DNA from: a virus
Virus record (IMG/VR): IMGVR_UViG_3300032116_012273
Span: 1 to 21,643 of that record
Strand: one strand, 5' to 3'
Length of the DNA: 21,643 nucleotides
Below, one piece after another: positions 3,344 to 21,643 of this stretch (its first letter is position 1; every line of letters starts with the position of its first letter). Made by a program: the position numbers and the translations under genes. Under the pieces are notes generated by a model. It was not told the DNA's origin. It worked only from the letters and a program-made list of their open reading frames with translations, and ran no database searches.

Positions 3344-3351
3344 TTTTTAAA

Positions 3352-4089: not shown

Positions 4090-4415
4090 TATAAAATTGA
4101 TTTTTTTTGTTTCTGAGTATCTTTCCATAATAACTCATCAACAGGTTCCCATTTTTTTTCAGGACACTCATTATATTTAATTGTGAATATTTTCTTTCTT
4201 AAATTGCATCCACATTTAAAACAATAAGGATCACCCGTAACATCTCTTTTTTCTCTAAAATGTTCACAACCCACACATATATTCCATCTAGCTTCAGCCA
4301 AATTTTTTTGCTCTTCAGTAGGGTTTGCAGAGGCCACCCAAGCATCAAGAATTGTAACAATTTTCGAAGGATCTTTTACAATATTCGATATGATTTGTTT
4401 TAATCCTAAATTCAT
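4089..4415 (-). CDS. Zinc-ribbon small protein
   Basis: A 108-residue protein with a helical N-terminal half and a Cys cluster: CVGC (47-50) and CFKCGC (65-70), then ECPEKKW (83-89). The pattern CxxC...CxxCxC...CP looks like a treble or ribbon zinc site. Such small proteins with a CxxCGC...CPxxKW tail are familiar in tailed-phage genomes and have no established function; I recognise the pattern, not a role. The ATG at 4415 follows the 49-residue ORF by 10 nt. Its stop overlaps the next start by 1 nt (TAATG). Confidence 0.65.
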   Translation of the reverse strand: MNLGLKQIISNIVKDPSKIVTILDAWVASANPTEEQKNLAEARWNICVGCEHFREKRDVTGDPYCFKCGCNLRKKIFTIKYNECPEKKWEPVDELLWKDTQKQKKSIL

Positions 4416-4610: not shown

Positions 4611-6386
4611 TTAATATCCAGGAGGTGGGGAAGGTGCTGGTGGTTTTTGGTTATTACACCAAGCACCTGGTGAAGGGAAATATGGTGAGTCAACACATGT
4701 ACCTCCCCATGGTGTTGATGTCCATGTATCACAATACTCATACGCAGGTCCTTCAAAATATGGCGCACTTGGGTTGCCGTATTGAACTCTACAACATGCC
4801 GATATTAATGAACATGCATTAACCACCCAACCGCCACTATTACAAAGTGCACAACCACCAGGATCAACTCCGGTATTATTAATATAATAGATGGTTGGGC
4901 TTGGACAATAAAAAACTCTACAATCGTAACTATAGTTATGTGTGATTAACCCATATCTATTATTACTACTTTCGTCCAATGTTAAAAATAAATCAAATTG
5001 ACTAACATCAAGTGAGTATGCAGAAATACTTTGATGTGAAAAACCTAAACTTGTAACAGTCCTTTCTACGATAGTTTCTGTTTCGTTGTCCCATATAAAT
5101 AAAATTGAACCAATCTCTATATGTTGATATAGTGTAAATTTAGCCACAGTTACTCCAGAAATTAATTTTTTTGTTAAGACCATTGCATGTGGTACATCGG
5201 AAAATGTTAATCCATCATCTAACTGAAATTCAATTATTTCTCCAAAATATTCTTTTCGCACTTTACTCACAACCACAGAATTTTCTATTGAGTAATTTTC
5301 AACGATATCTGAAGTTTGTCCAGTCCATGAAAGGGTGGAAAATTCACTAGTATTAATCGGTAGTGAAGGAAAATTAATTGATTTTACATTGTCGCCAACA
5401 TTTAGTTGGTCTATTGTTATAATTTCATTGTTAGGTTTTAGTATTTTTGTTCCAGAATCTGCAGATAACTTTATTGCGAGATTTTGATATAAAGAATTGT
5501 ATTTTGTGACATATCTATTTCTATCCCATATTTGTACATTATTATTATCATCATAGTCAGGAGTACTAACTAAATCTAAGATATTAGTTCCTTCTACGTC
5601 CCATAGATGTAAAATATCTAAATTTGAACCATAAATTAAATCTACACTTCTATAAACTTTTAATTTATTTAAAAACAAATTATTAGGGTCACATATAAAT
5701 TCTTGAAGATACTCATCAATTTGTAAATTATTTTTTATGTTATCTAATTCTTCTACTGTATTTACTTTTAATAATTTTGGATAGATGTTACTATTTGTTG
5801 GTGTAATTCTTTTTTTTATGAGATAATTTGGGTGGTCGTTATTATCCCTCAAATTCGTCCCAATCGAATCGAATCCCAAAATTTCATCGTCTATATATGT
5901 TTTAGGTATTAAATTTGGATTAGTATCATACATTAATTTTAAAAACTCCCAATTATCTTTGGCATAAGTGTCATCAATCAATGCTGTTGTGTCATATGCT
6001 AATCTTATTATTAATTTACCTTCACCATCCTCAACATTCGGTATTGTAATTGAATTATCATCTACCTTAATGGAGGATATCGTTATATTAGTATTTCTGT
6101 AAATGTCTCTCAACAATCTAATTAAGTTTACACCAGTCGTATCATCAATATAATTTTGATTTTTTTCTTCTGTTTCACCTTCATGATCCACAATTTGCAT
6201 ATTGTTGTTATTGTGGATAATCACTATTTCTTGAATATTATTATTAGTAATAAAATCGGTAAAAACGTTAATATCTAAATATCGAGAAACGTCCACACAT
6301 AGTGACACGTTAGTGTTTGTTTCAATTGCTTTGAAAGTACCATCAATATCTCTAATGAAGTCGGTACCGGTAATAAGTGATTTCAT
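4611..6386 (-). CDS. Hint (intein-like autoprocessing) domain protein with ATP-grasp-like head and Cys/Pro-rich tail
   Basis: A 591-residue protein. Residues 308-484 read as a Hint domain. SADSGTKIL starts it with Ser308 in the position-1 nucleophile place; ITIDQLNVGDNVKS (323-336) follows; block-B-like FSDVPHAMVL has His400; YGLITHN ends it with His483-Asn484. The residue after Asn is Tyr485, not Cys/Ser/Thr, so canonical splicing is unlikely and cleavage more plausible, as in bacterial intein-like domains. Residues 1-300 (TDFIRDIDGTFKAIETNTN near the start, YLIKKRITP and DEYLQEFI later) vaguely resemble ATP-grasp ligases. The tail 485-591 has ten cysteines and ends in PPAPSPPPGY. The gene has a good promoter-like element. 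A virion or secreted role is inference. Confidence 0.72.
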   Translation of the reverse strand: MKSLITGTDFIRDIDGTFKAIETNTNVSLCVDVSRYLDINVFTDFITNNNIQEIVIIHNNNNMQIVDHEGETEEKNQNYIDDTTGVNLIRLLRDIYRNTNITISSIKVDDNSITIPNVEDGEGKLIIRLAYDTTALIDDTYAKDNWEFLKLMYDTNPNLIPKTYIDDEILGFDSIGTNLRDNNDHPNYLIKKRITPTNSNIYPKLLKVNTVEELDNIKNNLQIDEYLQEFICDPNNLFLNKLKVYRSVDLIYGSNLDILHLWDVEGTNILDLVSTPDYDDNNNVQIWDRNRYVTKYNSLYQNLAIKLSADSGTKILKPNNEIITIDQLNVGDNVKSINFPSLPINTSEFSTLSWTGQTSDIVENYSIENSVVVSKVRKEYFGEIIEFQLDDGLTFSDVPHAMVLTKKLISGVTVAKFTLYQHIEIGSILFIWDNETETIVERTVTSLGFSHQSISAYSLDVSQFDLFLTLDESSNNRYGLITHNYSYDCRVFYCPSPTIYYINNTGVDPGGCALCNSGGWVVNACSLISACCRVQYGNPSAPYFEGPAYEYCDTWTSTPWGGTCVDSPYFPSPGAWCNNQKPPAPSPPPGY

Positions 6387-7214: not shown

Positions 7215-7580
7215 TTATTTAATATTTAATCCGTTATTGTCAATTTCCCCATTTCTTATTTTTGTTCCACTTATCTCAGCAATTTCGGATGGTGGTTCAT
7301 GATAAATAACATCATAACCAACACCTCTACCATAGTTAACACTATCGATATCTGGAATAATTGAGAGAAGTATTCTATCAAAATTATCATTAAAGAAGGG
7401 TTCTTTAATTAATTCTTGAAATACTTCTTGTGCGCTTTTAGGGTTATTTTCATCTTTAGGTACGTCTCTAATCGCAACCCAAACATTTTTTCCTTTGTCT
7501 AATTGTTGGTTAATTAACCATTCATGTCCTTTATGCCAATTTTGCCAACGACCTATGTACAATGCATACTTTTTATTCAT
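7215..7580 (-). CDS. HxGH-motif nucleotidyltransferase (cytidylyltransferase-like)
   Basis: A compact 121-residue protein with both signatures of the nucleotidylyltransferase superfamily: GRWQNWHKGHEWLI (10-23; HKGH at 16-19) and ISGTKIR (103-109). Between them, VAIRDVPKDENNP (35-47) and IIPDIDSVNYGRGVGYDVI (74-92) are distinctive. The fold covers NMN adenylyltransferases, cytidylyltransferases and, more distantly, ATP sulfurylase, whose own motif also reads ISGT-x-x-R. The length excludes a full ATP sulfurylase. Position two genes from cysC suggests a role in the same pathway, but NAD or CDP-alcohol metabolism cannot be excluded. The start overlaps the preceding oxygenase stop (ATGA). Confidence 0.72.
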   Translation of the reverse strand: MNKKYALYIGRWQNWHKGHEWLINQQLDKGKNVWVAIRDVPKDENNPKSAQEVFQELIKEPFFNDNFDRILLSIIPDIDSVNYGRGVGYDVIYHEPPSEIAEISGTKIRNGEIDNNGLNIK

Positions 7581-8125
7581 ATTAAACTTTTAGTTTCTTT
7601 AACTATATTTTTTATTTGAAATCCTAATGTAAGTGTAACCCTATGTCTATCCCCAATAACGGGGGTACTTCCATGTACAACCCTACCCGCCACACATCTC
7701 CATACCATATTTTCTTGTAATTTATTTATTTTTCCATTATATAATGAATCACCACCTTCTTCTGGATATTGTAATATTACATTATATCTAACATGAGTAT
7801 ATCCATCAAGATTTGGGTCGGTGTGTTGATGTATTGCACCTCCTTTCCTGTTTATACCAATGGCATCTTGAAATGTTGGGTCTAAAACCCAATCATTAAT
7901 ATTTTCCACTTCAATTATTCTTTTTTTTATGATACTCACTAATTCTAATGGTGAGTTTTCAATACTTTGTAGTATCCCAATTTTTTTTCCTTCTCCGTAT
8001 TCACCAATTTTATTTGAAAAAAATTTATCTTCGTTTTCGAATGTCCACTTCAAAAGAGTATTCTTTTCTTCATCTGATATGAAATCCACGTATCCATATG
8101 TTTCATTCATTTCTATTTTTTTCAT
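7577..8125 (-). CDS. 2-oxoglutarate/Fe(II) oxygenase-like protein
   Basis: A 182-residue protein. GGAIHQHTDPN (95-105) carries an HxD iron triad start (His101-Thr-Asp103). VVHGSTPVIGDRHRVTLTLGF (149-169) carries the distal His151 and an Arg (160 or 162) for 2-oxoglutarate. The strand RYNVILQYPEEGGDSLYNG (113-131) fits the jelly-roll core. It differs clearly from the PKHD protein downstream and from the StrG-like protein at 14535-15188. The substrate is unknown; the context is sulfate activation and glycan decoration. It may start at ATG 8125 or at Met6. It is coupled by 4-nt ATGA overlaps on both sides. Confidence 0.75.
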   Translation of the reverse strand: MKKIEMNETYGYVDFISDEEKNTLLKWTFENEDKFFSNKIGEYGEGKKIGILQSIENSPLELVSIIKKRIIEVENINDWVLDPTFQDAIGINRKGGAIHQHTDPNLDGYTHVRYNVILQYPEEGGDSLYNGKINKLQENMVWRCVAGRVVHGSTPVIGDRHRVTLTLGFQIKNIVKETKSLI

Positions 8126-8559
8126 AAATCAAGTTTTGAAATCAATTCATTAAAAGAAGATATAATTGAAATGTTCGTAGTATCTATGTCCAAATAGTTG
8201 TCCTGTGGTTTTTCATAATTGTTTACATGAAAATTATTCCTACCCCTATCATCAGTTGTATACACATAGATTTCACGTACATCGTTATTTTCTTTAAATT
8301 GTTCTCTTTGGTCTCGGTATGGTGATACTAAAGTCACAACAACCTCATATCCCTTTTTACTCATAAAAAGAGCAATCTCTTGGGCTCTTTCAATGTTTTT
8401 CTTTCTTCCTGTTTCGGAATAATCTTTATTTTGGAAAATATCTCTTAAATCGTCTCCATCAATATGGATTACCTTATTAGAATGTAGAAGATATGTCTCT
8501 AAATGTTTACCTAAAGTGGTTTTTCCAGCTCCTGGCTGACCTGTGAACCAATATATCAT
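8122..8559 (-). CDS. cysC: Adenylylsulfate (APS) kinase
   Basis: A 145-residue protein beginning MIYWFTGQPGAGKTTLGKHL. The P-loop GQPGAGKT is at 7-14, HIDGDDLRDIF (32-42) is the APS-binding segment, and YSETGRKKNIERAQEIALFM (47-66) and VVTLVSPYRDQRE (74-86) follow as in CysC. NYEKPQDNYLDIDT near the C-terminus is the family's YExPxxPxxxxDT region. It phosphorylates APS to PAPS, the donor for sulfotransferases. It is shorter than the bacterial enzyme (about 200 residues). I chose ATG 8559 over the TTG at 8586 because the family N-terminus begins there. No ATP sulfurylase is visible, so APS would come from the host. Confidence 0.88.
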   Translation of the reverse strand: MIYWFTGQPGAGKTTLGKHLETYLLHSNKVIHIDGDDLRDIFQNKDYSETGRKKNIERAQEIALFMSKKGYEVVVTLVSPYRDQREQFKENNDVREIYVYTTDDRGRNNFHVNNYEKPQDNYLDIDTTNISIISSFNELISKLDL

Positions 8560-8595: not shown

Positions 8596-8712
8596 TTAAT
8601 GATTATAAATAAATGGGTCTCTTTTTCTCAGTTCTTCCAATTTCTTTTTGAATTCTTTTTTCTTCTTACGTTCTGACAATAATTTTTTAAACCAATCAAT
8701 AAGTTTCTTCAT
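8596..8712 (-). CDS. 38-residue basic small protein
   Basis: ATG at 8712, stop TAA at 8598-8596. It begins MKKLIDWFKKLLSERKKKK and ends KKLEELRKRDPFIYNH. It is very rich in Lys/Arg, predicted as one amphipathic helix followed by the tail RDPFIY. Its ATG overlaps the carbamoyltransferase stop as ATATGA, the same junction seen elsewhere in this operon, which strongly supports translation. I have an impression that similar tiny KKLEELRKRDPF peptides accompany glycan genes in aquatic phages, but cannot verify it. Function unknown; it might bind nucleic acid, membrane or the neighbouring carbamoyltransferase. Confidence 0.65.
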   Translation of the reverse strand: MKKLIDWFKKLLSERKKKKEFKKKLEELRKRDPFIYNH

Positions 8713-10391
8713 ATTTTGTTTTTATATATTACATAATTTCCCATCACTAATACATCCATTTCAGTATCAAAAAACGTGTCAATGGCATCTTTTGGTGTTA
8801 ATACCATTGTTTTATCTTTAACATTAAATGATGTGTTTAGTAAAATTGGGTACCCTGTTATTTTTTCAAATTCTTTTAACAAATCATGTATTTGAGTGTG
8901 TGAGTGGACTGTTTGAACTCTGGCCGTTCCATCAACATGTGTAACCGCTTTTAATATATTAATATATTCCGGTTTTACTTTTACAACTTGATTCATATAG
9001 GGAACATCTTCAAACATCTCAAAATAGTTATGTTGTTTTTCTTTCATCACCATCGGTGCAAATGGTCTGAATCCCTCCCTTTTCTTAATTACTCTATTTA
9101 TTTTGTCTTTCATACCATCCAACATTGGGTTGGCTAATATTGATCTGTTACCCAATGCTCGAGCACCGAACTCACAATGTCCTTGATACCATCCAATCAC
9201 TTTACCCTTACTAATTTCATATGCTACCAATTGTATTAATTTTTGTTGACTATAGAATCTATGATATTTGTTACCAACCCTATTTTTAATGACTTTAATG
9301 ATATCGTTTTCATAATACATCGGACCTAAAAATGGATTTTTAGTTATCTTATCTTTGAGTTTCCCATTTTTGGAAAGATAATGTATACATGCACCTATGG
9401 AAGATCCTGCATCTGACGGTGCGGGTGGTATGGAGAGATGTTTGAATGGTGAGTTATCATATATTTTACCGTTAGCAGTACCATTATATGCACATCCTCC
9501 ACTCAAACATAAATTTTTTGATTCGGTAACTATTTGAATTGTATTCAATATTTTGAAAAACACTTCTTCGTATCTTTTTTGTATTGATGCCGCCAAATCC
9601 ATATGAATTTGTTCTAATTTTTCATCTGGTAGTCTCTGTTCTATACTCAATAATTCTGATAATTTTTCATTGAACATGGTTTTTTCTGACTTGTTCCAAA
9701 TGAAAACATCCATGTTACATCTCAATTCCCCGTTTTCAAAATTTATTAATTTTCTCACATTATCAATATACACATCAGGATTACCATACGATGCTAATCC
9801 CATTACTTTATATTCACCTTCGTTAGGTCTGAAACCCAAAAACGATGTCATGGCCGAATAGAATAACCCCAATGAATGTGGGTATTCGGATAATGGTAGA
9901 TATTTTATTTTGTTATCGTTAGCAATCCCCAAAGATAATGTATCTATTTCACCGACACCATCCACCGATAAACACACGGCATCTTTGAAATCAGATATAT
10001 AATACGAATAATATTGATGTGATTCGTGATGTGTTGAATAAAATACATTCTTATACTCTGATAAAAATGTATTTAGTTCTTTTATGTTTTTCTTTATTTT
10101 GAAATAAGATTTTATTGAATATAATAAATTTGAAAACAATTGTGTTTTTATGTTATTGATTACTCTTTCTTTTTTTAATTTAGGGTCCTCATAATAACAA
10201 ATCATTTCCACATCTTTTTTATCGATTTTGAATGTTTTGAATATATACTCTAACGTTTTCTTTGGAAATGATGAATCGTGTTTAATTCCTGTGAATTTTT
10301 CTTCTTCGCAAGCAAACAACAACTGTCCGTTTTTAAAGAGACATGCAGAAGAATCATGATAAAATGCCGATATACCAATTATATAACTCAC
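8709..10391 (-). CDS. Carbamoyltransferase, NodU/TobZ family
   Basis: A 560-residue protein, the full family length. The N-terminal Kae1-like domain opens with GISAFYHDSSACLF (6-19) and has the metal-binding HHESH (121-125), SVDGVGE (142-148) and CLSGGCAYNGTANGKI (295-310). The C-terminal YrdC-like domain has GWYQGHCEFGARALGNRSIL (400-419) and INRVIKKREGFRPFAPMVM (431-449). These enzymes make carbamoyl-AMP from carbamoyl phosphate and ATP and carbamoylate a hydroxyl, typically on a sugar. It starts with GTG at 10391, overlapping the TGA of the upstream dehydratase gene by 4 nt. It likely O-carbamoylates the glycan or its nucleotide-sugar precursor. Confidence 0.93.
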   Translation of the reverse strand: MSYIIGISAFYHDSSACLFKNGQLLFACEEEKFTGIKHDSSFPKKTLEYIFKTFKIDKKDVEMICYYEDPKLKKERVINNIKTQLFSNLLYSIKSYFKIKKNIKELNTFLSEYKNVFYSTHHESHQYYSYYISDFKDAVCLSVDGVGEIDTLSLGIANDNKIKYLPLSEYPHSLGLFYSAMTSFLGFRPNEGEYKVMGLASYGNPDVYIDNVRKLINFENGELRCNMDVFIWNKSEKTMFNEKLSELLSIEQRLPDEKLEQIHMDLAASIQKRYEEVFFKILNTIQIVTESKNLCLSGGCAYNGTANGKIYDNSPFKHLSIPPAPSDAGSSIGACIHYLSKNGKLKDKITKNPFLGPMYYENDIIKVIKNRVGNKYHRFYSQQKLIQLVAYEISKGKVIGWYQGHCEFGARALGNRSILANPMLDGMKDKINRVIKKREGFRPFAPMVMKEKQHNYFEMFEDVPYMNQVVKVKPEYINILKAVTHVDGTARVQTVHSHTQIHDLLKEFEKITGYPILLNTSFNVKDKTMVLTPKDAIDTFFDTEMDVLVMGNYVIYKNKI

Positions 10392-11395
10392 CTATTTAAA
10401 TATTTACGTCCGCTATTTATTTTATCTCTCCAATAATCTAATAAGTCGTCCATTGTTTTGTTATAGTTAATTTCGGGTTTCCATCCCGTGATTTCTCGAA
10501 ACTTTTTTGTGTCAGGAATTTGTAGATTGGCATCAATCGGTCTTAATCTATCTTTATCCACAATTATTTCAATGTCAGGTATTTTAGATTTAGAAAGTAA
10601 GTATCTTAATGTATCTCCCACCATACATGTGTGTTCTCCACCAATATTATAATACGCACCAGAAGACGGGTTAATATTCAATAACATCCAATAGGCTCTA
10701 ACCGCATCTCTAACGTCAGCATATGTTCTAAGTGAATCTAAATTACCCACAAATATTTTAGGTTCTTGTAACCCATTTTCAATCATGGCAATTTGTTTTG
10801 CGAATGATGATTCATGAAATACATCACCTCTTCTCGGTCCTGTATGTGTGAACATTCTGGTGGTCATTACCATCATATTATACGCTTCACCATAATATCT
10901 ACCAATTAAATCAGTACCAACCTTTGATATTGCATAGGGTGATGCTGGATGTAATGAACACTCTTCATTAATTGGTAATTTATCTTTAGTAACTCTACCA
11001 AAAATTTCACTTGATGCACATACATGTATATGGGCATCACTATATGGTGATTTTCTGAGTGCCTCTAATAAATTTGCGGTACCTATTATATTTGTTTGTA
11101 ATGTTTCTAAGGGTGAATCAAAACTTGTTTGAGGATATGATTGTGCACCTAAATGAAAAACATAATCTGGTTTAGATATTTCAATTGCATTTACAATTGA
11201 AGCGTAATCATTTAAATCCCCATATATTAATTGTATTCTTTCTTTTTTGTTAATAATATCAGTAAGGTGTTCAATATTATCCATCGATTCGTTCCATCTA
11301 CAAAATCCATATATTTTACACGGTTTTTCTAAAAGAAAATCTACCATGTGTGACCCAACCATCCCCAAAACACCTGTTATTAATATATTACTCAT
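10388..11395 (-). CDS. gmd: GDP-mannose 4,6-dehydratase-like extended SDR
   Basis: A 335-residue extended short-chain dehydrogenase. The NAD(P) loop is GVLGMVG (8-14). VCASSEIFG (125-133) supplies Ser128-Ser129-Glu130, as in dehydratases where the Glu acts in water elimination. SPYAISK (152-158) gives catalytic Tyr154/Lys158. GPRRGDVFHESSFAKQIA (186-203) parallels the PRRGETF segment of Gmd. It is expected to convert GDP-D-mannose to GDP-4-keto-6-deoxymannose. The Rmd reductase, a close relative, is the main alternative. The neighbours, a ColD-type enzyme and two epimerase/reductase SDRs, support the dehydratase reading. It overlaps the upstream SDR by 8 nt. Confidence 0.75.
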   Translation of the reverse strand: MSNILITGVLGMVGSHMVDFLLEKPCKIYGFCRWNESMDNIEHLTDIINKKERIQLIYGDLNDYASIVNAIEISKPDYVFHLGAQSYPQTSFDSPLETLQTNIIGTANLLEALRKSPYSDAHIHVCASSEIFGRVTKDKLPINEECSLHPASPYAISKVGTDLIGRYYGEAYNMMVMTTRMFTHTGPRRGDVFHESSFAKQIAMIENGLQEPKIFVGNLDSLRTYADVRDAVRAYWMLLNINPSSGAYYNIGGEHTCMVGDTLRYLLSKSKIPDIEIIVDKDRLRPIDANLQIPDTKKFREITGWKPEINYNKTMDDLLDYWRDKINSGRKYLNR

Positions 11396-12359
11396 TTTTA
11401 GATTTTAGTTTAAAATTATTAAACCATTCCACAGTTTCTTTAATACCATCTTCAAAACTATATGATGGTGTGAACCCTAACTCATTCTGTATTCTTTCAG
11501 TACTAACAGCTCTAAAAGGTATTGTAGTTGGTTTTGTATCATCCCACGTAACTTCTGGATTCTTTCCTGTAACTTTCAAAATTATATTTACAATCTCACC
11601 TATAGTAATTCCTCCACCATAACCTAAATTATAGGGTCTCATTGATTCTCCCTTCTCTAATATTAAAAGTGCACCTTTAACAACATCCTTTATATAAAGA
11701 AAATCTCTAACAACATCCGAACTTCCCCATACTGTTAATGGATTTTCATCATTTAATATTCTCTTAATAAGTGCAGGGACAACGTGACACGTCTTCAAAT
11801 CAAAATTATCAAATGGACCAAATATTGCCGTTCCTCTTGCCAATCCAATTTCTAATCCAGAAAATTTGGAGACGTGTTCCATTAATTTTTCCCTATATCT
11901 CCTCATCCAACCATATCCATAATAAGATTTATATGGTTCGTCAATCCAATATTCATCTTCTGTTAGTGGTCTTCTGATATCAGGATAACCTGTAGAACTA
12001 TTCAAATCTAAAAATCTTTTAACCTTGTTTTTAGTGCAGGATTCTAATACATTGGCAATTAAGTTTAATTGTTTCATTGCTATTTGAACATCCGTTGGTA
12101 CAGATGATGGGTGTGCCACTTCACCCGCACAATGAATTACGTAATCGGCATTTTCTGTTAATTTAATACATTCATCCAATTTCATTAAGTCTAAATTATA
12201 AAGTACTTGAACGTTTGGGTGTTTGAATTGTAATTCTTTTTTATGTACATGGGTTCTGACACGAGCACCTCTGTTTATAAGTTCCATCAAAAAATGTGTT
12301 CCTATGAAACCAGAACCACCCGTAACTACCACTAATTTATTTTTAAAAAAATCTCCCAT
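11388..12359 (-). CDS. NAD-dependent epimerase/reductase (extended SDR), atypical catalytic motif
   Basis: A 323-residue extended SDR with GGSGFIG (14-20), HCAGEVAHP (76-84) and LNSSTGYPD (119-127). The catalytic region is YYGYGWMRR (146-154): Tyr149 is in place, but the residue four later is Arg153 rather than Lys. GTAIFGPFDNFD and VRDFLYIKDVVKGA are typical of the GDP-fucose synthase/UDP-glucose epimerase group. Likely role: epimerisation and/or reduction of a 4-keto nucleotide sugar, e.g. the final ColC-like step. It starts one base after the stop region of the paralogous SDR at 12361-13335. Substrate uncertain. Confidence 0.75.
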   Translation of the reverse strand: MGDFFKNKLVVVTGGSGFIGTHFLMELINRGARVRTHVHKKELQFKHPNVQVLYNLDLMKLDECIKLTENADYVIHCAGEVAHPSSVPTDVQIAMKQLNLIANVLESCTKNKVKRFLDLNSSTGYPDIRRPLTEDEYWIDEPYKSYYGYGWMRRYREKLMEHVSKFSGLEIGLARGTAIFGPFDNFDLKTCHVVPALIKRILNDENPLTVWGSSDVVRDFLYIKDVVKGALLILEKGESMRPYNLGYGGGITIGEIVNIILKVTGKNPEVTWDDTKPTTIPFRAVSTERIQNELGFTPSYSFEDGIKETVEWFNNFKLKSKNE

Positions 12360-12360
12360 C

Positions 12361-13335
12361 TTAATGATTTACAAAAGCGTTATATCTTTTATCTAAAATA
12401 TCTTTATTGTTCAAAAACCATTCGGTTGTTTTTCTAATTCCATTATCCAAATTCACGGTATTTAAAAAACCTAAACTCCTTGACCTTTCCATACTAAACA
12501 ATCTTACTTTATCTCCACCAGAATGTTCTGTTAACCATTTTATTTCAACTTCTTTACCTGAATGTTTTATGACTAAATCAACCAAATCTTTTATTGTTTG
12601 TCTTCTTCCTGAACCTAAATTTATTGGCTGTGTTATTTTATTCTCAACTGCAAATACCATTCCTCTGGCAACATCTTCGGAATAAATAAAATCTCTAATT
12701 TGTGTTCCATCACCAAAAACTTCTAAAACATCATTTTCTTGTACTTTTCTTATTAATGAAGGTACTACCATAGCATTTGTTGGGTTGAAATTATCATATG
12801 GTCCATAAACATTTGCCGGTCTAACAATTGATATCTTATTCCAATTATATTGAATACCGTAAGTTTCTGCTTGTAATTCACCCATTCTTTTTGCCCAACC
12901 AGCATACTTGTCATTTGGTGATGGAAATGTTTGCCATACAGATTCTTCATAAAACATTTCAGATGGTCCATACACCCCGACAGAACTCGTATACAAAAAC
13001 CATTCTACATTTGATTCAAATGCCGCCTGCATCATATTGGTATTGAACTGTAACATCGGTACCATAAAGTCTACAGGTTGTTCTTTTGCCATTGTTGGGG
13101 ACCCTTTCACTCCTGCTAAATGAAAAACAAAATCTTTATCCTTACATATGTCCAAACAATTATCAAAGAACCTCAAATCCACTTGTAGGTGTTCAACAGC
13201 ATCAGGTAAATCTTTTGGTTTAGTTAAATCAGCAATACTAATTTGTACACCTTTACTTAATAGGATATCAATTAATGACCTACCAATCATACCTGCACCA
13301 CCAGTAATCAAAACTTTTTTATCTTTAAACATCAT
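12361..13335 (-). CDS. NAD-dependent epimerase/reductase (GDP-fucose synthase-like SDR)
   Basis: A 324-residue extended SDR with GGAGMIG (12-18), FHLAGVKGSP (71-80), YTSSVGVYG (115-123) and DKYAGWAKRMGEL (142-154). Lys149 aligns with the catalytic lysine, but the nearest Tyr (144) is five residues before it instead of four, with Ala145 in the usual Tyr place. PANVYGPYDNF and IRDFIYSEDVARGM are typical of WcaG/Fcl-like enzymes. It probably acts on the same nucleotide-sugar intermediate as its paralog. The protein starts Met-Met, so 13335 or 13332 is possible; both overlap the ColD-type gene by about 10 nt. Confidence 0.76.
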   Translation of the reverse strand: MMFKDKKVLITGGAGMIGRSLIDILLSKGVQISIADLTKPKDLPDAVEHLQVDLRFFDNCLDICKDKDFVFHLAGVKGSPTMAKEQPVDFMVPMLQFNTNMMQAAFESNVEWFLYTSSVGVYGPSEMFYEESVWQTFPSPNDKYAGWAKRMGELQAETYGIQYNWNKISIVRPANVYGPYDNFNPTNAMVVPSLIRKVQENDVLEVFGDGTQIRDFIYSEDVARGMVFAVENKITQPINLGSGRRQTIKDLVDLVIKHSGKEVEIKWLTEHSGGDKVRLFSMERSRSLGFLNTVNLDNGIRKTTEWFLNNKDILDKRYNAFVNH

Positions 13336-14488
13336 TTAATTTTTTACACAAATCAATTATTTGTTCATCACTTAAATCCGTGTGATTTCCAACATACAAC
13401 GAATTATCATGAATATATTCTATATTTTCAAAAGTCCCAACTTTACCATAATCATAAGATTCTAAATATGGTTGTTGAATTTGATTTCCTCCACCGGCAG
13501 TACCGAGTCTATATTCAACCTCACACGTACCAAGTATTTCACATATTAATGATATGTTAGTATTATTTTCTCTCATTATTAATGGTAGTGCGAAATTACT
13601 ATTACCTTCAATATTATAATCCGTTTTGAATTTTTTAGGATTTAAATTATCCAACCACACACTTAGATTATGTCTACGTTTTTCAATATTATAATCTATA
13701 CGTTTCATTTGTTCAATACCTAAAACGGCATTTAATTCAGTACTTCTCATATTGAATCCAGGTACTGCAAATGTGAATAATGGATTTAATTTGGGGTATG
13801 TTGATTTATAGTGATCTTGAACTATTTGAGACGCTTCTCTTGTCATTCCGTGTGACCTATGTAATCTTGATAAATCGTCAATAACAATGTCATTTGTACA
13901 TACCATTCCACCTTCGATTGTTGTTATATGATGACCAAAATAAAAAGAAAATATGGAGATGTCTCCGAAAGAACCTACTTTCTGATTATTAAATGTCGCA
14001 CCATGAGCTTCACAACAATCCTCAATCAACAATAAATTATTTTCCTTTGCTATTTTTATAATTTCTTCATTAATTGCATTAAATCCGAGACAATGTACAA
14101 GGACAATTGCCTTTGTTTGAGATGTTATTGCATTTTTTATATTCTGAGATGTAGTTGATAAGTTATCCATTGACACATCCACGAATACGGGTTTCATTCC
14201 TAATTGTACTACTGATGATACATCTGAAACCCATCCAAGAGGAGGGACAATTATTTCTCCAATTCCTCGTAATGCCTTAACAATTGCCATTGAAATGAAG
14301 TTTCCGGAACTACCAGAATTAACCATGGTACTATACTTAACACCTAACCATTTTGACCATATGGATTCAAATTCTTTTACTTTTGGTCCGTTTGTTAATC
14401 TTTGGTCCGATAAAATAAAATCAGATAAAATCTGTCTATCTGCTTTAGTTATATTGTCATTAATTAATGGCCATTTGAAATTCTTCAT
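13325..14488 (-). CDS. ColD/E1-type PLP-dependent sugar 3-dehydratase (DegT/DnrJ/EryC1 fold)
   Basis: A 387-residue protein starting at ATG 14488; a TTG at 14548 gives an implausible extension. It has the DegT aminotransferase fold: VNSGSSGNFIS (56-66), VPPLGWVSDV (81-90), IEDCCEAHGA (155-164; Asp157 for the PLP ring nitrogen). The usual PLP lysine is missing: the loop reads SFYFGHHITTIEGGM (181-195) with His186-His187 where aminotransferases have K. This His substitution marks GDP-4-keto-6-deoxymannose 3-dehydratase (ColD, 388 residues) and E1 of CDP-ascarylose synthesis. Expected reaction: loss of the C3 hydroxyl to give a 3,6-dideoxy-4-keto sugar. Gmd-like and SDR partners lie just downstream. 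Confidence 0.8.
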   Translation of the reverse strand: MKNFKWPLINDNITKADRQILSDFILSDQRLTNGPKVKEFESIWSKWLGVKYSTMVNSGSSGNFISMAIVKALRGIGEIIVPPLGWVSDVSSVVQLGMKPVFVDVSMDNLSTTSQNIKNAITSQTKAIVLVHCLGFNAINEEIIKIAKENNLLLIEDCCEAHGATFNNQKVGSFGDISIFSFYFGHHITTIEGGMVCTNDIVIDDLSRLHRSHGMTREASQIVQDHYKSTYPKLNPLFTFAVPGFNMRSTELNAVLGIEQMKRIDYNIEKRRHNLSVWLDNLNPKKFKTDYNIEGNSNFALPLIMRENNTNISLICEILGTCEVEYRLGTAGGGNQIQQPYLESYDYGKVGTFENIEYIHDNSLYVGNHTDLSDEQIIDLCKKLNDV

Positions 14489-15188: not shown

Positions 15189-15927
15189 TTTTTTCAAATA
15201 TTTCTTTTAATAATTTAGTTTCAATTTTTATGGGATTGTGTATTCCCATGGGGTCAGGACAATACACATCCTCCATCGCAAATTTTTCTGCACTTTCTAA
15301 ATCGGCTAATCCATTCCCATTCAAATATTTTGAAAAATAAATGTCTTCCCACATTCCATAATCCGATTTATATTTTTCCGTAATTTCTATCATCTTATCT
15401 TTTGTTCTTAAAGATAAACCACCATTACCAATAATACAACCTTCTTTTGGTTTTTTCCATGGAGCACCTATATAATCCCATTTTAAAAAATCCTCAATTC
15501 CATTTTTTAATAACATAGAATCATTTTGAAAAATTAGTATTTTTTTTCCTTTAGACCTTTTCCAAAAATCGCTTGTTTTTAATATTTCGGTATGTGTTTG
15601 TCTATCTTTAAAATTTGAAATATTTAGATTTTCATAAACAATGTTATTGAAATCCTTTAATAAATCTTTTATAAAGAATTCATTCTCACTTCCGTGAAAT
15701 ATCTGTAATCCCCACTTAATACCCAATTTATTATTATTTAAAAAATACAAATGATTTTTTATGATTGGTCGTAGTTCGATTAAACTTCTTAAATCAAATA
15801 AAGATGCATAAAAATCCGATTCTTCATGTATTTCAGGAATATAATTTTCTAACTTATTTTCAAAAAATTTTAAATAATTTTGAAATAAAATTTGATTGTT
15901 TTTTTTATATTTAAATTCTTCGTTCAT
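15166..15927 (-). CDS. DUF5672 glycosyltransferase-like protein
   Basis: A 253-residue protein with the hallmark series of DUF5672: ILIFQNDSMLL with an N-D-S in the DxD position, KWDYIGAPW, GCIIGNGGLSLR, a later acidic MWEDIYFSKYL, and DPMGIHNP near the end. DUF5672 domains adopt a GT-A-like pattern and are often found in capsule, LPS and phage glycan clusters; sugar specificity is unknown. The first 70 residues are charged and not conserved-looking. Its ATG overlaps the upstream SGNH gene stop as ATATGA. Confidence 0.82.
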   Translation of the reverse strand: MNEEFKYKKNNQILFQNYLKFFENKLENYIPEIHEESDFYASLFDLRSLIELRPIIKNHLYFLNNNKLGIKWGLQIFHGSENEFFIKDLLKDFNNIVYENLNISNFKDRQTHTEILKTSDFWKRSKGKKILIFQNDSMLLKNGIEDFLKWDYIGAPWKKPKEGCIIGNGGLSLRTKDKMIEITEKYKSDYGMWEDIYFSKYLNGNGLADLESAEKFAMEDVYCPDPMGIHNPIKIETKLLKEIFEKNVPEYSL

Positions 15928-16541
15928 ATTTTATGTATGATATTTTCATATATGTAATTACCAATGAATTTATAACCCAATAGATTTGGGTGGTAATCTC
16001 CTTCCCAAAAATTTTTCTCGTCGTTCCAAACCATTCTACTGTTATATTCCCATACGGAAATATCGTTTTTTATTTCATAATCTTTTAAATAATCTGAAAT
16101 TGATTTATTTGGTTCAATAAAATAATCAGGTAAATTTCCTGTATCAAAGTTTTCGTGTTTGAACGTGGGATAAAAAGAATTAAAATAAAAATGTTTTCTA
16201 TTCTTTAATAGATTTTCCATTCTATTATATACTTTAATAACATCATGTTCATCATGATATCTATATGGATATGACAACATAACAATTATAATATCATTTT
16301 CTTCTAAAAAACCATTATCGATTGAATCGATGACACTTCTGAGTATATATTCGTTCCCATATCCACACACACCCATATTCACATATGCACAATTAAGTTT
16401 TTCTCCTAACCATCTCGGCCAAGAATTTTGATTTCTTAAATTTTCAATAAATTTAGGTGGGAATGCATCTTCTTTATATTTTAAATCAGATTCAACTCCG
16501 TGTCCTGCTGTCCAACTGTCCCCAAAACATATCAATCTCAT
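15924..16541 (-). CDS. SGNH/GDSL-type hydrolase-like protein
   Basis: A 205-residue protein. LICFGDSWTAGHG (3-15) is block I with Ser9 as nucleophile. NMGVCGYGNEY (55-65) supplies the Gly/Asn oxyanion residues. WEGDYHPNLLGY (179-190) supplies Asp182 and His184, spaced D-x-H rather than the usual D-x-x-H. Family members are esterases, often removing acetyl groups from glycans, and some SGNH proteins act as O-acetyltransferases. No signal peptide is visible, so it probably acts in the cytoplasm. It is the last of three tandem SGNH-like genes. Confidence 0.8.
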   Translation of the reverse strand: MRLICFGDSWTAGHGVESDLKYKEDAFPPKFIENLRNQNSWPRWLGEKLNCAYVNMGVCGYGNEYILRSVIDSIDNGFLEENDIIIVMLSYPYRYHDEHDVIKVYNRMENLLKNRKHFYFNSFYPTFKHENFDTGNLPDYFIEPNKSISDYLKDYEIKNDISVWEYNSRMVWNDEKNFWEGDYHPNLLGYKFIGNYIYENIIHKI

Positions 16542-17278
16542 AACTTATTTTTAATAAAATCCTCTATCCGATTTTCTAAAAATCCTTTAAATATTATTTC
16601 TTGTGAATCACCACCATAATGGTAGTTATCAACGGAGAGTTTAGGTACTTTATTTTTTTTAGTGAAATCCTCAACATACCCATCAATAATGTTCATATTT
16701 TTTATAATATCGGCATATCCAGACTTCTCGGCCAATTCCTTTATATCCACAAACCAACTAAAAAATAATATTTTTTTATTATAAAATTCAGATAAAGTCT
16801 GTAAAGTCATCAAAGTATGAAAAACTTTTAAATTTAAATTATATTCGGAAGTTAATATGTGATTTACAAAAAAATCGTTTATTTGTATTGGATTTACATT
16901 TTTTAATACTCTGTCTATTTGTGTTGCACTGTCTCTAACAGTAAATGTATAATAACTGGCATTTTTAAAAAACCTTTCTGAACACAATTGGTCTAAATTT
17001 ACATTAGATATACCGAATCTATTTTTATATTCATCAATAATATTATTACCATCAATACCTAATACTAATCTAGATGGGTCAGTCAATTGAAATATGTGGA
17101 AATCTAAATCTTTATGGTTTTCAAAAATATATTTTATTTTTTCTATGTGTATTTCATTGCCAACTCCCGACGCAAATGTCTCAATAATTTTTGGGTTATA
17201 TTTTTCACTTAAAAAGTTAACCCATGATTTACCATAACTTGGTGTGGAGTGTGAACATCCACTAACACCTATTTTCAT
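16538..17278 (-). CDS. SGNH-like hydrolase domain protein
   Basis: A 246-residue protein that starts MKIGVSGCSHSTPSYG; the block-I motif GCSHS has the candidate nucleophile Ser9. ASGVGNEIH (36-44) carries oxyanion Gly/Asn. LSVDNYHYGGDSQ (214-226) has Asp217 and His220 with canonical D-x-x-H spacing. LDFHIFQLTDPSRLV (58-72) matches the central strand region. The arrangement is that of the SGNH fold despite low overall similarity to its neighbours. Substrate unknown; a glycan ester is likely from context. It overlaps the downstream SGNH gene by 4 nt and the upstream one by 1 nt. Confidence 0.68.
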   Translation of the reverse strand: MKIGVSGCSHSTPSYGKSWVNFLSEKYNPKIIETFASGVGNEIHIEKIKYIFENHKDLDFHIFQLTDPSRLVLGIDGNNIIDEYKNRFGISNVNLDQLCSERFFKNASYYTFTVRDSATQIDRVLKNVNPIQINDFFVNHILTSEYNLNLKVFHTLMTLQTLSEFYNKKILFFSWFVDIKELAEKSGYADIIKNMNIIDGYVEDFTKKNKVPKLSVDNYHYGGDSQEIIFKGFLENRIEDFIKNKL

Positions 17279-18012: not shown

Positions 18013-19292
18013 ATTAAGTTTTTAAAAAATAAATAATCCGATTCATCATCCAAATTTTTTAAGACTTTTAACCTATTATTTTCAAATCTATTTTTATTAT
18101 TTTTATAAAATTCAATAAATTCTTTCTTGTTTTCATTAATTCTAATAACTTCATTTATAAATTTTTTAAAACGAATTTTTTGGTTTGGTTCGTCATCGTA
18201 ATCATGATTAATAATATCATCAAAAAAATCTAAATCATATTTTTTTTTCATCATTTTAATATGATTATGTGTTGCTAATATCAATGGAAATTGATAATGG
18301 AAAAATGGTTTAAATGATTTTTCGGTTATATGGATTGTATTTGTATCATCCAAAAAATTTGATTCTGTTGTTAAATTTACATATGAATTTTCATAATTAT
18401 ATTTAAATTCCGGTACTCTCATCCAATGAGGCAACCCATCAGTATTTAATTTATTTTTTTCTGAAAACCATTTTTTATCAACTTCATAGTCACTCACTTT
18501 AAACGGTAAATTTCTTAAATATTCTATTTGCATTTCATATTTTTCAATGTCATTCGTATCTACTATTGATTTAATAAAACTAACATCTAAATTAATTTCA
18601 TAATCAGGAACTAATGACCAATTTGTATCCTCTAATATATTATGATACATTAAAAATATTAATAGTGAATAACGATGTGGTTTTGGTGATTTATTAAATG
18701 TCATGAAAAACTTACCTGTTTTATTTTCAATAAAATCAGATTTTTCAATATTATTCAAGACAATTGTTGATGAATTTGGAAGAAAGGATAATGTATGTAC
18801 ATTTATATTTGTGATATATTTTATCTTGTATTCTTCTAATCTTGAATTATTATTTATTACATATATTTTATTCTCTTCAATATTTAATTCTTTCAATTTT
18901 TTTATTAATAGTCTAAATGAGTTTTCATTTTCTGCTTCATGTTCACTTCTAAACACAATAAAAAAATTATCACATTCTTTAATACATTTCAAAACAATAT
19001 CACTAAATGGCATATTGTCCATAAATAGATGATATACATCACAGGCGGCATTTCCAATAATGTAATAAAATTTTTCGTTTGGGTTATTGTAAACATCTTC
19101 AATTTTACATCTATTTAAAATAAATTTATCTAATCTTTTTGTCTCATTTAGATAATGTTGTGGTAGACCTTCCGACATCCAAAATCTCCAATTTTTATTA
19201 TAAAAAATTGATGCATTTGGATATGGGTTACCTGATTCATCCCATTCATCATAAACTAAATTGAGGATATTTTTATTTTCTCGTATTTCCAT
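18009..19292 (-). CDS. Putative glycosyltransferase (SEK/TEKxxKP family)
   Basis: A 427-residue protein without a signal peptide. FFMTFNKSPKPHRYSLLIF (about 195-213) and YVNLTTESNFLDDTNTIHIT running into EKSFKPFFHYQFPLILA (about 309-345) form a two-part pattern resembling the C-terminal nucleotide-sugar site of GT10/exostosin-like GT-B enzymes (T-E-S ... T-E-K-x-x-K-P ... P-L). The gene product at 20433-21638 shows the same pattern, so they are paralogs or family members. Acceptor and donor are unknown. It overlaps the upstream dehydrogenase gene by 20 nt and the downstream SGNH gene by 4 nt. Confidence 0.6.
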   Translation of the reverse strand: MEIRENKNILNLVYDEWDESGNPYPNASIFYNKNWRFWMSEGLPQHYLNETKRLDKFILNRCKIEDVYNNPNEKFYYIIGNAACDVYHLFMDNMPFSDIVLKCIKECDNFFIVFRSEHEAENENSFRLLIKKLKELNIEENKIYVINNNSRLEEYKIKYITNINVHTLSFLPNSSTIVLNNIEKSDFIENKTGKFFMTFNKSPKPHRYSLLIFLMYHNILEDTNWSLVPDYEINLDVSFIKSIVDTNDIEKYEMQIEYLRNLPFKVSDYEVDKKWFSEKNKLNTDGLPHWMRVPEFKYNYENSYVNLTTESNFLDDTNTIHITEKSFKPFFHYQFPLILATHNHIKMMKKKYDLDFFDDIINHDYDDEPNQKIRFKKFINEVIRINENKKEFIEFYKNNKNRFENNRLKVLKNLDDESDYLFFKNLI

Positions 19293-20436
19293 ATTTTATT
19301 ACTATTATGTTATTATTTTTTCTTTCAAATTCCCTCCACATGTCCACAACCACACTACCATCCACAAATTGAAATCCATTAAATTCATTTCTATGTGAAA
19401 TTAAATAAATCGCTTTACCTATGTTCTGATCAAATATAAAATTTTTACCTTTTTTATTTAAAAAATGTCCAGTTAAATATGATGTTGATCCATCAACAAT
19501 GTCTACATTTGGTTTATACGACTTACCAAGAATTACTATTGGTAAATTATATTCATTTTGTAATTGAACTAACCTATCCGCCAAATTTTCGGCTTGTTTT
19601 TCTCTTGCTGTCATAATTGAATCAAATAAATCATATCCCAACCCCAAATTTTTAGCCATATATCTTAAAGCGATATTATCTCTCGGGTGACATGAACCGC
19701 CGTCACCCATACCTGATTTCATATACCTGGCACTAACAATCCTTTTTGTACTTCTTTCGAGTGCACCTGTAACCACATCGACATTTATATTACCCAATTT
19801 TTCGGCAACGTCTTGTATCATATTTACTAACGCCACTTTTGTTGATATGAACGTATTATAAAAAATCTTTATTGATTCCGCCTCGTCCCATGTTCCTATT
19901 TCATATCTGGTATTAACATCTGTTATTGTTACATAAAAATCTTTTAATATTTTTGCATCGGTAGTATGTGAACCATCCTCAGTACCAATAATAACCATTT
20001 CGGGAAATACCATATCATATTTTACCGAACCCATAGCAATTAGATATGGGTTATATATAAACCTATAATTTTTAATTAATGGTTCAAATTCTCTTCGGAT
20101 TGTACCGGGTAATACTGTCGAAATTAAAATGACTAACTGATTTTTATTAATAAAATTATTGAGATTGGTTAATACACCTTTCACAATAGAATAGTCAAAA
20201 TCTTTTGGTTCTAAATGTGATGTAGGTTCTTTTCCATCATAAAGTGGGTCATGTGGGGTCGGTACTGCAACAAAAATCAAATCTTTATCTCTACACACAT
20301 CTTCTAATGTGTTAACAACTGAAAAATATTTAGTTTGTACGTCAACAATATCATAACCCTCAACATAATATTTTTCTGACATTACCTCGGCAGCCTCTTT
20401 ACCTAATTTACCTAAACCAATAAACCCTATCTTCAT
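19273..20436 (-). CDS. UDP-glucose/GDP-mannose 6-dehydrogenase family protein
   Basis: A 387-residue protein. GFIGLGKLG (4-12) is the NAD-binding loop. VAVPTPHDP (57-65), STVLPGT (106-112), EAESIKIFYNTFISTKVALVN (185-205) and GMGDGGSCHPRDN (242-254) follow. Cys249 is the predicted thioester nucleophile. The usual GGxCxPKD has Arg in place of Lys. GKSYKPNVDIVDGS (304-317) is the C-terminal active-site loop. It would oxidise C6 of a nucleotide hexose to a uronic acid in two steps with NAD. Whether UDP-glucose, a HexNAc or GDP-mannose is the substrate cannot be told from sequence. It sits between two related putative glycosyltransferases, consistent with a uronate-containing glycan. Confidence 0.85.
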   Translation of the reverse strand: MKIGFIGLGKLGKEAAEVMSEKYYVEGYDIVDVQTKYFSVVNTLEDVCRDKDLIFVAVPTPHDPLYDGKEPTSHLEPKDFDYSIVKGVLTNLNNFINKNQLVILISTVLPGTIRREFEPLIKNYRFIYNPYLIAMGSVKYDMVFPEMVIIGTEDGSHTTDAKILKDFYVTITDVNTRYEIGTWDEAESIKIFYNTFISTKVALVNMIQDVAEKLGNINVDVVTGALERSTKRIVSARYMKSGMGDGGSCHPRDNIALRYMAKNLGLGYDLFDSIMTAREKQAENLADRLVQLQNEYNLPIVILGKSYKPNVDIVDGSTSYLTGHFLNKKGKNFIFDQNIGKAIYLISHRNEFNGFQFVDGSVVVDMWREFERKNNNIIVIKYGNTRK

Positions 20437-21638
20437 ATTAATTTTCTTTTAATGTCTTTGTCAGATATGTCATTCCATATTTCTAATAATACATCTCTTA
20501 TAGTTAATGAGTTATCGTGTGAATTATATTTAGTGATGTAATATTTTTTATAATGATTATAATTATATTCAATAACTTCTTTCATTTCTTCCCTAATTAT
20601 TTTTAATTCATTCAATGATTTTTTATTGAATTTGTCTATTTCAGATACAATCATTTTACATCTAATATTTTCATCTTTCTCATCATCATACGACTCATCA
20701 ATCCATTTACCATATGTTTTAAATCCTAAAGATTTTAAATACTCTAAAGATTTGTAATTACCATATAAGATAAATGGATGTCCAACCATTATTGGTTTCC
20801 ATATTTTTTCTGAAAAAAACAACGTACCATCTTCAACCATAGTTTCTGTAACAACTGAGATAAAAGTTTTTTGATAATCTTCTATTGTTAAATTGCAGGC
20901 CAAATTATACCTAAGTTCGGGTAATGTGTCCAGCATAATTGGTGTATTGAGATTGAAATAGTTTTTTGTCTCATCATCTATGGTGAATGGGAAGTATGTT
21001 ATTTTATTTAAACTAATTCTACCTTTGTCTAATAGATTTTTTTCATGTATGTCAACCACAAAACGAATTCTATGATTTCTTATTTGCCTATTGTATGATA
21101 AAAATAGAAATTTTTCATCTGACGGTATAAAATCAACAATTGGTCCATTATACTTATTCCATGGTTCGAAATAATGAATTCCTCTAGCTTGATATCCATA
21201 ATCATGATTTTTAACAATCTGATCCGATAATAAATTACCACAAACATAATAAATTGAATCTTTGGGGAAGTTCATTTCATTTCTCCATTTTTCAATCATT
21301 TCAAAATCATCATTTCCTTTTGTACCAGAATAACCTTCATAAATAAAAAACATTAAAATTTTTGATTTTCCAATTCTAATATCGTTTACATATTTATCAG
21401 AAATACATTTAAACCCTATATCTTTGTTTTTAATGAAGAATTCCCTAGCATACACATTTATAATGTATATATGTGGTGAGTCCCCGATTTTATCCATTGG
21501 GGTGTATTCTATTAACTCAGAATGCTGTGGCGTTATTTGATGTTTTATATGTCCATTTTTGAACATTTCACCCTTTTCACTGAACACATTCCACTCTCCC
21601 CACATCAATGGAATAGTCAATTTCTTAAGTTCCTTCAA
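20433..21638 (-). CDS. Putative glycosyltransferase (SEK/TEKxxKP family), 5' end uncertain
   Basis: A 401-codon frame from TTG at 21638; the frame is still open to the right edge, so the true start may lie outside the window or at the internal ATG encoding MWGEWN (Met12). FLFLSYNRQIRNHR (about 178-191) and ISVVTETMVEDGTLFFSEK (about 265-283), followed by IWKPIMVGHPFIL, match the pattern seen in the 18009-19292 product. KSLEYLKSLGFKTY and KWIDESYD follow, a tail common in putative glycosyltransferases of phage and bacterial polysaccharide clusters. Donor and acceptor unknown. The stop overlaps the dehydrogenase start as ATATGA. Confidence 0.62.
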   Translation of the reverse strand: MKELKKLTIPLMWGEWNVFSEKGEMFKNGHIKHQITPQHSELIEYTPMDKIGDSPHIYIINVYAREFFIKNKDIGFKCISDKYVNDIRIGKSKILMFFIYEGYSGTKGNDDFEMIEKWRNEMNFPKDSIYYVCGNLLSDQIVKNHDYGYQARGIHYFEPWNKYNGPIVDFIPSDEKFLFLSYNRQIRNHRIRFVVDIHEKNLLDKGRISLNKITYFPFTIDDETKNYFNLNTPIMLDTLPELRYNLACNLTIEDYQKTFISVVTETMVEDGTLFFSEKIWKPIMVGHPFILYGNYKSLEYLKSLGFKTYGKWIDESYDDEKDENIRCKMIVSEIDKFNKKSLNELKIIREEMKEVIEYNYNHYKKYYITKYNSHDNSLTIRDVLLEIWNDISDKDIKRKLI

Positions 21639-21643
21639 ATACC

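Follow-up and report, generated by a model that had tools for sequence, protein, structure and literature searches.

Four contiguous genes from an uncultured phage appear to encode the central enzymes of a viral nucleotide-heptose pathway, with a proposed branching at C4, whose product would go to a surface glycan; we put this reading forward as somewhat probable. The DNA analyzed here, which we call the window, is 21,643 nt long, comes from virus record IMGVR_UViG_3300032116_012273, and is part of an uncultured tailed phage. Gene identities, catalytic residues, conservation, phylogeny, and neighborhood were taken from sequence; substrate, product, branching, and role are what we infer from them.

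The Window and Its Genes

The four ORFs (DegT, SDR-A, SDR-B, and the dehydratase; Table 1) are tightly packed: DegT and SDR-A overlap by 11 bp, 1 nt separates SDR-A from SDR-B, SDR-B and the dehydratase overlap by 8 bp, and the end of the dehydratase gene overlaps the start of the carbamoyltransferase gene by 4 bp. With such overlaps and so small a gap, these genes, the carbamoyltransferase included, look like a single operon, and decoration of the sugar is a possible task for the carbamoyltransferase. Family matches of all four core genes lie far above chance (E 1e-28 to 1e-106), and all four are under purifying selection (dN/dS about 0.05–0.2, with dS near saturation). The dehydrogenase homologue keeps its place upstream of DegT among the syntenic viruses. 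A search of the window for repeats and tRNAs gave nothing notable.

Table 1. Genes of the window and their predicted products
Feature	Coordinates	Strand	Basis
DegT/ColD-type PLP (PMP) 3-dehydratase, 387 aa	13325..14488	-	Pfam PF01041, PDB matches, tree
SDR-A, extended SDR, GDP-fucose-synthase fold, 324 aa	12361..13335	-	family and fold matches
SDR-B, extended SDR, GDP-fucose-synthase / GDP-mannose 3,5-epimerase fold, 323 aa	11388..12359	-	family and fold matches
GDP-D-glycero-D-manno-heptose-4,6-dehydratase-like SDR (DdahA/WcbK type), 335 aa	10388..11395	-	7us5 match, tree
NodU/CmcH-type O-carbamoyltransferase	8709..10391	-	Pfam Carbam_trans_N/C, 206 and 217 bits
UDP-glucose/NDP-sugar dehydrogenase homologue, glycan island	19273..20436	-	sequence matches
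401+ aa gene running to window end	20433..21643	-	ORF

The Two Predicted Dehydratases

In the DegT protein, His186-His187 occupy the site of the aminotransferase lysine. The preliminary description had remarked on this HH and on the length of 387 residues, and both are indeed there; alignment places H186 at ColD H188, precisely the column at which the mutant chains 3b8x, 2r0t, and 3gr9 depart from the wild type. The pair is invariant among 13 aligned viral relatives. Against Pfam PF01041 the protein scores 242 bits, and its top PDB match is ColD (2gms, 191 bits, 33% identity), with E1 at 149 bits. The absence of a [2Fe-2S] cysteine motif is what separates the ColD type from E1/SpnQ, and at the four iron–sulfur Cys columns of E1, the DegT protein aligns a gap, a gap, A, and V; an iron–sulfur dehydratase of the E1/RfbH type is ruled out by these missing cysteines. 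In the tree, where a single change separates 85 His rows from 14 Lys rows, the protein belongs to a clade of 19 rows, all of them His-bearing (support 100), and ColD forms a long, separate branch. This nesting, together with the invariance of HH, rules out a random K-to-H change in an aminotransferase. The comparison with ColD and E1 and the phylogeny, both suggested in the preliminary description, thus agree with it: a ColD-type PLP/PMP 3-dehydratase is the supported assignment, and such an enzyme would place the product of the viral cassette among the 3,6-dideoxy nucleotide sugars, with GDP as the probable carrier.

Its partner had been labeled “Gmd-like,” and here we must differ. With the GDP-D-glycero-D-manno-heptose 4,6-dehydratase of Campylobacter jejuni (7us5), the dehydratase shares 52% identity (357 bits), compared with 31% (150 bits) for Escherichia coli Gmd, and its score for the Gmd family is 170 bits against a cutoff of 415 bits. 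In its tree, it joins the characterized heptose enzyme in a 9-row clade (support 99), outside a clade of 26 true Gmds (support 100). The low score and the tree position rule out a canonical Gmd. The motif CASSEIFG...YAISK meets the [ST]SE...YxxxK pattern of the DdahA/WcbK type, a motif that is also typical of GMD (PMC8987622). Judged by sequence, the enzyme is of the GDP-heptose 4,6-dehydratase type (DdahA/WcbK), not Gmd.

The Two SDRs

That two GDP-fucose-synthase-like SDRs lie side by side holds for their contiguity and fold, and GDP-fucose synthase is the closest NCBIfam family for both, but the catalytic residues have not been kept. The reference set in fucose/colitose synthase is Ser107/Cys109/Tyr136/Lys140/His179 (E. 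coli Fcl numbering). At these five columns SDR-A has S, G, A, K, M—that is, the catalytic Tyr has become A145, Lys149 is retained, and the epimerase Cys and His are replaced by G120 and M189—and SDR-B has S, T, Y, R, H, with Ser121, Tyr149, and His192 retained, Lys changed to Arg153, and Cys changed to Thr123. With the set incomplete in both, neither would be a standard colitose synthase, and by the same residues, neither is a canonical C4 reductase. Pseudogenes are ruled out by the dN/dS values and by confident predicted folds (pLDDT 87 and 92). The fold search returned only general GDP-sugar SDRs (fucose synthase, GDP-mannose 3,5-epimerase, and C. jejuni heptose reductases) and no clue to what replaces Tyr or Lys.

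Relatives in Viruses and Cells

The preliminary description thought such a cassette rare for a viral genome. We found it in about 50 viral contigs, and relatives of the DegT gene occur at 57 IMG/VR loci and in dozens of cyanophage records. What, then, do these relatives carry beside it? In 45 of the 57 viral loci, a thiamine-dependent E1-alpha/E1-beta pair lies within 8 kb of the cassette, and E1b immediately precedes DegT in most of those loci, in SAR116, and in several bacterial phyla. E1a scores 99 bits as pyruvate dehydrogenase and 20 bits as transketolase; the catalytic Glu of the short-form E1b was assessed by eye. The 21,643-nt window holds no such pair; in its own subgroup, the pair lies about 8 kb off, in divergent orientation. 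In the closest syntenic virus (L143), it is encoded at 11259-11891 (+) and 11906-12451 (+), beginning 94 bp upstream of the gene (9876-11165, -) that corresponds to the one running to the window end; in the window, it would lie just outside. This location is among the observations that we count against the heptose pathway.

A SAR116 bacterium (L065) has the genes RmlC-E1a-E1b-DegT-SDRA-sSDR-SDRB3-dehydratase-hddC-hddA in a row, hddC and hddA being genes of GDP-heptose supply, and a Thermoplasmatales archaeon has the order dehydratase-E1a-E1b-SDRA...hddA. Verrucomicrobial relatives pair E1 and DegT with no recognizable heptose dehydratase nearby, another observation on the debit side of a heptose pathway. 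In the cyanophages S-SM2 and P-TIM68, a fused E1-type protein adjoins a carbohydrate kinase and a phosphoheptose isomerase, and no DegT is annotated within 9 kb on either side of it.

As for supply, gmhA, hddA, and hddC were sought in viral records and not found (hddA and hddC are absent from 25 viral records), which also counts against the pathway; a viral route to GDP-heptose through these genes is rejected for the records searched, and GDP-heptose would need a host source. An HldE-like (domain I-like) kinase adjoins the dehydratase in 26 of the 57 viral loci, and HldE domain II-like nucleotidyltransferases occur in some. Such genes would suggest ADP-heptose, a further point that we hold against the GDP-linked scheme; the window itself has no HldE-like gene.

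Discussion

In the chemistry that we envision, the dehydratase would act at C4/C6 of D-glycero-D-manno-heptose, most likely GDP-linked; the His-type PLP enzyme would then strip the C3 hydroxyl as ColD does, by way of PMP and using glutamate as the amino donor, leaving an NDP-3,6-dideoxy-4-keto-heptose. In most relatives, E1-alpha/E1-beta would attach two carbons derived from pyruvate at the C4 ketone, an addition resembling those of yersiniose and the octoses of antibiotics, and the two noncanonical SDRs would epimerize, isomerize, or reduce the product. The final sugar would enter a surface glycan built by nearby glycosyltransferase, carbamoyl-, sulfo-, and oxygenase genes, and this glycan may change the surface of the host or serve as a decoration of the virion. 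The heptose part draws on the identity and tree of the dehydratase, on the SAR116 and archaeal clusters, and on the frequent HldE-like kinase. The branching part draws on how often the E1 pair lies near the cassette and on the ability of E1-type TPP enzymes to branch keto sugars (PMC12247030); the finished sugar is probably C-branched at C4.

Each known system shares something with this scheme. The C. jejuni HS:5/HS:11 GDP-3,6-dideoxyheptose pathway likewise has a heptose-type 4,6-dehydratase and then a ColD-like PLP C3-dehydratase, chemistry that is proven in HS:5 (PMC10440746), but it has a C5 epimerase, a C4 reductase, and hddA/hddC/gmhA; of these supply genes the window has none, and its two SDRs carry altered catalytic residues. 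Its proven C3-dehydratases are 62–67% identical to ColD (PMC10440746), whereas the window DegT, at 33%, is only distantly related, a difference that we count against the heptose pathway. The colitose pathway (Gmd-ColD-ColC) shares a 4,6-dehydratase, a ColD-type 3-dehydratase, and a fucose-synthase-like SDR; the window differs in its heptose-type dehydratase, in having two SDRs rather than one, and in its incomplete ColC-type residues. The branching systems of yersiniose A (YerE) and of octoses (AviB1/B2, KbDH) share with the window's relatives a thiamine enzyme in a 3-deoxy-4-keto sugar pathway. YerE belongs to the decarboxylase superfamily and takes a CDP-hexose as its substrate, and E1-type (alpha-KADH2) branching is known from antibiotics (PMC12247030, PMC4753412), not from phage or LPS heptoses; the window itself does not include the pair, and nothing relevant came from a literature search on heptoses branched by thiamine enzymes. 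The cyanophages Bellamy and SynMITS9220M01 have a heptose-type dehydratase (51–52% identical to the window's; that of Bellamy shares 75% identity with the C. jejuni enzyme), and genes for a kinase, a nucleotidyltransferase, and a carbamoyltransferase lie nearby; the stretch examined held no relative of the window DegT or SDR-B and only distant SDR matches.

Could the product instead be a linear GDP-3,6-dideoxyheptose, much as in HS:5, with the thiamine pair serving some other step (transketolase-like supply of sedoheptulose phosphate, for example) or another sugar? The C. jejuni pathway works without a thiamine enzyme (PMC10440746), the two cyanophages with a fused E1-type protein lack an annotated DegT beside it, and the pair stands apart and divergent in the window's subgroup. 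Against this we set E1b directly preceding DegT in most viral loci and SAR116, an E1a that resembles pyruvate dehydrogenase rather than transketolase, and SDRs that are not canonical C4 reductases, and we consider the linear product unlikely.

The preliminary proposal was that GDP-mannose is turned into GDP-colitose or some other GDP-3,6-dideoxyhexose, and the 3,6-dideoxy half of it survives with the ColD-type enzyme. ColD is the best structural match, the dehydratase retains a motif shared with GMD, fucose synthase is nearest to both SDRs, and the published cyanophages S-CAM7 and ACG-2014f already hold colitose-type sets with a true Gmd; yet a dehydratase far below the Gmd cutoff and outside that clade, SDRs with incomplete catalytic sets, and GDP-heptose genes in the SAR116 cluster make colitose itself improbable. 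Still less probable, to our minds, is a heptose carried by ADP, with similar chemistry fed by an HldE-type kinase and nucleotidyltransferase: the HldE-like genes of other loci and the missing hddA and hddC speak for it, but the sole characterized member of the dehydratase clade and the SAR116 cluster are of the GDP type, and the window has no HldE-like gene. Returning to the branched heptose, we offer its fullest form only tentatively: these viruses and the SAR116 bacterium that shares their cluster may make an undescribed nine-carbon, C4-branched 3,6-dideoxyheptose with a heptose 4,6-dehydratase, a ColD-type 3-dehydratase, a split pyruvate-dehydrogenase-like thiamine enzyme, and two fucose-synthase-fold SDRs that, lacking the usual Tyr or Lys, would use a different chemistry.

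What follows if a hexose is thus corrected to a heptose? The genes point to a widespread, unannotated pathway common to uncultured T4-like phages and marine bacteria, and its conserved SDRs, missing Tyr or Lys, offer a direct test of noncanonical SDR catalysis. If the branching is true, it would link the pyruvate-dehydrogenase-like thiamine enzymes of antibiotic sugars to the surface glycans of phages and bacteria, and the making of a rare surface sugar in the course of infection would matter for receptor masking and for phage–host specificity.

The Cassette and Its PLP Enzyme

The 21.6-kb window comes from a virus record, has a G+C content of 23–32%, and carries nearly all of its genes on the minus strand, with the four genes of the sugar cassette contiguous and intact. 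All four give pairwise dN/dS values against relatives of ~0.05–0.2 (Nei-Gojobori), which are approximate because dS is near saturation.

The cassette and the gene that follows it
Gene	Position	Strand	Basis
DegT (PLP enzyme)	14488–13325	-	
SDR-A	13335–12361	-	
SDR-B	12359–11388	-	
Dehydratase	11395–10388	-	
NodU-type carbamoyltransferase	next after dehydratase; start overlaps dehydratase end		Pfam

Among solved structures, DegT is closest to ColD (191 bits), followed by E1, the [2Fe-2S] PLP dehydratase (149 bits). The preliminary description had likened its HH site to that of ColD, and alignment bears this out: H186 shares a column with ColD H188, precisely where mutant ColD chains depart from wild type, and none of E1's four [2Fe-2S] cysteines is present in DegT. 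Nor does the protein fall among lysine-bearing aminotransferases. In a tree of 99 proteins, whose rows were gathered with patterns favoring the HH motif, one change splits 85 His-type from 14 Lys-type rows, and the window protein lies in a clade of 19 rows, all of them His-type and from viruses or marine bacteria (support 100). The His-for-Lys exchange marks C3 dehydration rather than transamination, and without an iron–sulfur cluster the ColD route applies, with PMP restored by glutamate and the 4-keto product freed by water (PMC8987622, PMC10440746). Judged by its sequence, DegT is very probably a 3-dehydratase.

Heptose or Hexose?

The first enzyme had been called Gmd-like, at the head of a GDP-colitose-like pathway, and this label we must withdraw. 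The window dehydratase matches C. jejuni GDP-D-glycero-D-manno-heptose 4,6-dehydratase (7us5) at 357 bits and 52% identity, as against 187 bits and 35% for GDP-6-deoxy-4-keto-mannose reductase and 150 bits and 31% for E. coli Gmd; in a tree, it shares a nine-row clade with 7us5 (support 99), apart from a long-branched clade of 26 true Gmds that includes that of cyanophage ACG-2014f (support 100). By homology the enzyme is heptose-type, and we consider it likely that the cassette's sugar is a heptose rather than a hexose. In cyanophage Bellamy (L059, 12001–13020), a protein whose sole annotation is NAD-dependent epimerase shares 75% identity with the C. jejuni enzyme.

Cellular relatives, from a single scan across genomes of bacteria and archaea, fix the predicted context of the cluster. 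A SAR116 genome (L065) carries in one row RmlC-like, E1-alpha, E1-beta (a thiamine-dependent pair distinct from the iron–sulfur E1), DegT, SDR-A, a small SDR, SDR-B3, heptose-type dehydratase, HddC-like (191 bits to HddC versus 125 to mannose-1-phosphate guanylyltransferase) and HddA-like (153 bits) genes; HddA also matches solved heptose kinases. A Thermoplasmatales archaeon (L135) has dehydratase, E1 pair, SDR-A, SDR-B, SDR-B3 and HddA in a single stretch. Verrucomicrobial and Chloroflexi relatives have the E1 pair, DegT and HddA/HddC-like genes (in one, gmhA too); their sugar may differ, because no recognizable heptose-type dehydratase lies near their E1 pair and DegT. A B12-binding radical SAM gene, perhaps for further sugar modification, adjoins the E1/DegT/HddA cluster in L068 (11174–12754; family match checked), and by eye a similar one occurs in L073, L113 and L135, these clusters spanning several bacterial and archaeal phyla.

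The Thiamine Enzyme and the SDR Pair

Our IMG/VR scan found 57 viral loci with DegT relatives. DegT–SDR-A adjacency is almost universal, and the dehydratase comes after them in 46. In 45 of the loci, a thiamine enzyme resembling pyruvate dehydrogenase has its two subunits encoded within 8 kb, E1-beta mostly directly preceding DegT. Eleven of 12 long contigs have a single E1-alpha match, ~10 kb or less from the cassette where placed. In the viral group with the window's gene order (L011–L013; L143), the pair is encoded on the other strand and lies 94 bp upstream of the window-end gene, so the window probably breaks off shortly before it. Of the 57 loci, 38 have an RmlC-like epimerase and 26 have an HldE-like kinase; gmhA was absent from the 12 viral records searched, as were hddA and hddC from 25. 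T4-type major capsid matches (5/8 long contigs, 0/14 control genomes) support a tailed-phage identity. The 326-kb contig L002 has DegT (569–1747) at one end and E1-alpha (321059–321523) close to the opposite end, their order matching that found elsewhere, which suggests a circularly permuted large phage genome. Phages S-SM2 (L147, 9001–10209) and P-TIM68 (L148, 9067–10212) encode a single-chain fused E1-type enzyme, annotated "transketolase central region," beside zinc alcohol dehydrogenase, carbohydrate kinase and phosphoheptose isomerase.

Neither SDR is a standard epimerase-reductase, because catalytic residues are altered. At the sites of E. coli GDP-fucose synthase S107, C109, Y136, K140 and H179, SDR-A has S/T, G/A, A/G, K and M/L (the catalytic Tyr is missing in 54/54 sequences), and in SDR-B of the window these are S, T, Y, R and H; alternative SDR-B forms in other viruses replace Tyr with V or A (P once). 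The two SDRs are modeled with confidence (pLDDT 87 and 92), and the models match GDP-sugar SDRs. Such SDRs can be active, as in PglF-type dehydratases with Met in place of Tyr (PMC8987622).

We propose that an NDP-heptose would undergo 4,6-dehydration, then C3 deoxygenation, then thiamine-dependent two-carbon addition at C4, the basis being homology for the first two steps and gene neighborhood for the third. Addition of this kind is on record for YerE and for antibiotic-sugar enzymes of the E1 type (PMC12247030; PMC4753412). We would give this branching slightly less than an even chance; in one consistent reading, a C4 reductase would be dispensable if the addition uses up the C4 ketone.

The Glycan Island

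Near the cassette (2786–4128, 7215–8559) are two sulfotransferase-like proteins (by eye; without Pfam match), an APS-kinase-like gene that matches Pfam APS_kinase, and a small HxGH nucleotidyltransferase, possibly a glycan sulfation module. A 591-aa protein (4611–6386), with no Pfam or PHROG match, has a Hint/intein-like middle (SADSGTKILKPNNEIITIDQLNVGD...ITHN) and a Cys/Pro-rich tail. Three tandem SGNH/GDSL-like hydrolase genes (15924–18012), kept in the syntenic viral group, are possible glycan O-acyl esterases or transferases. A conserved 135-aa protein (RKYLPTLAELIDRLSISQLKEVFI...; L010, 12773–13180), without Pfam match, has homologues in 40/57 viral loci, always within the glycan island.

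Nucleotide-sugar islands in phages are already known, and published cyanophages hold a Gmd, fucose-synthase-like and HH-DegT set. Among isolates in the phage collection, we found no close relatives of the cassette (DegT <40% among the records listed, SDRs ~30%, dehydratase 51–52%). What the cassette makes would, we infer, serve a virus-directed surface glycan.
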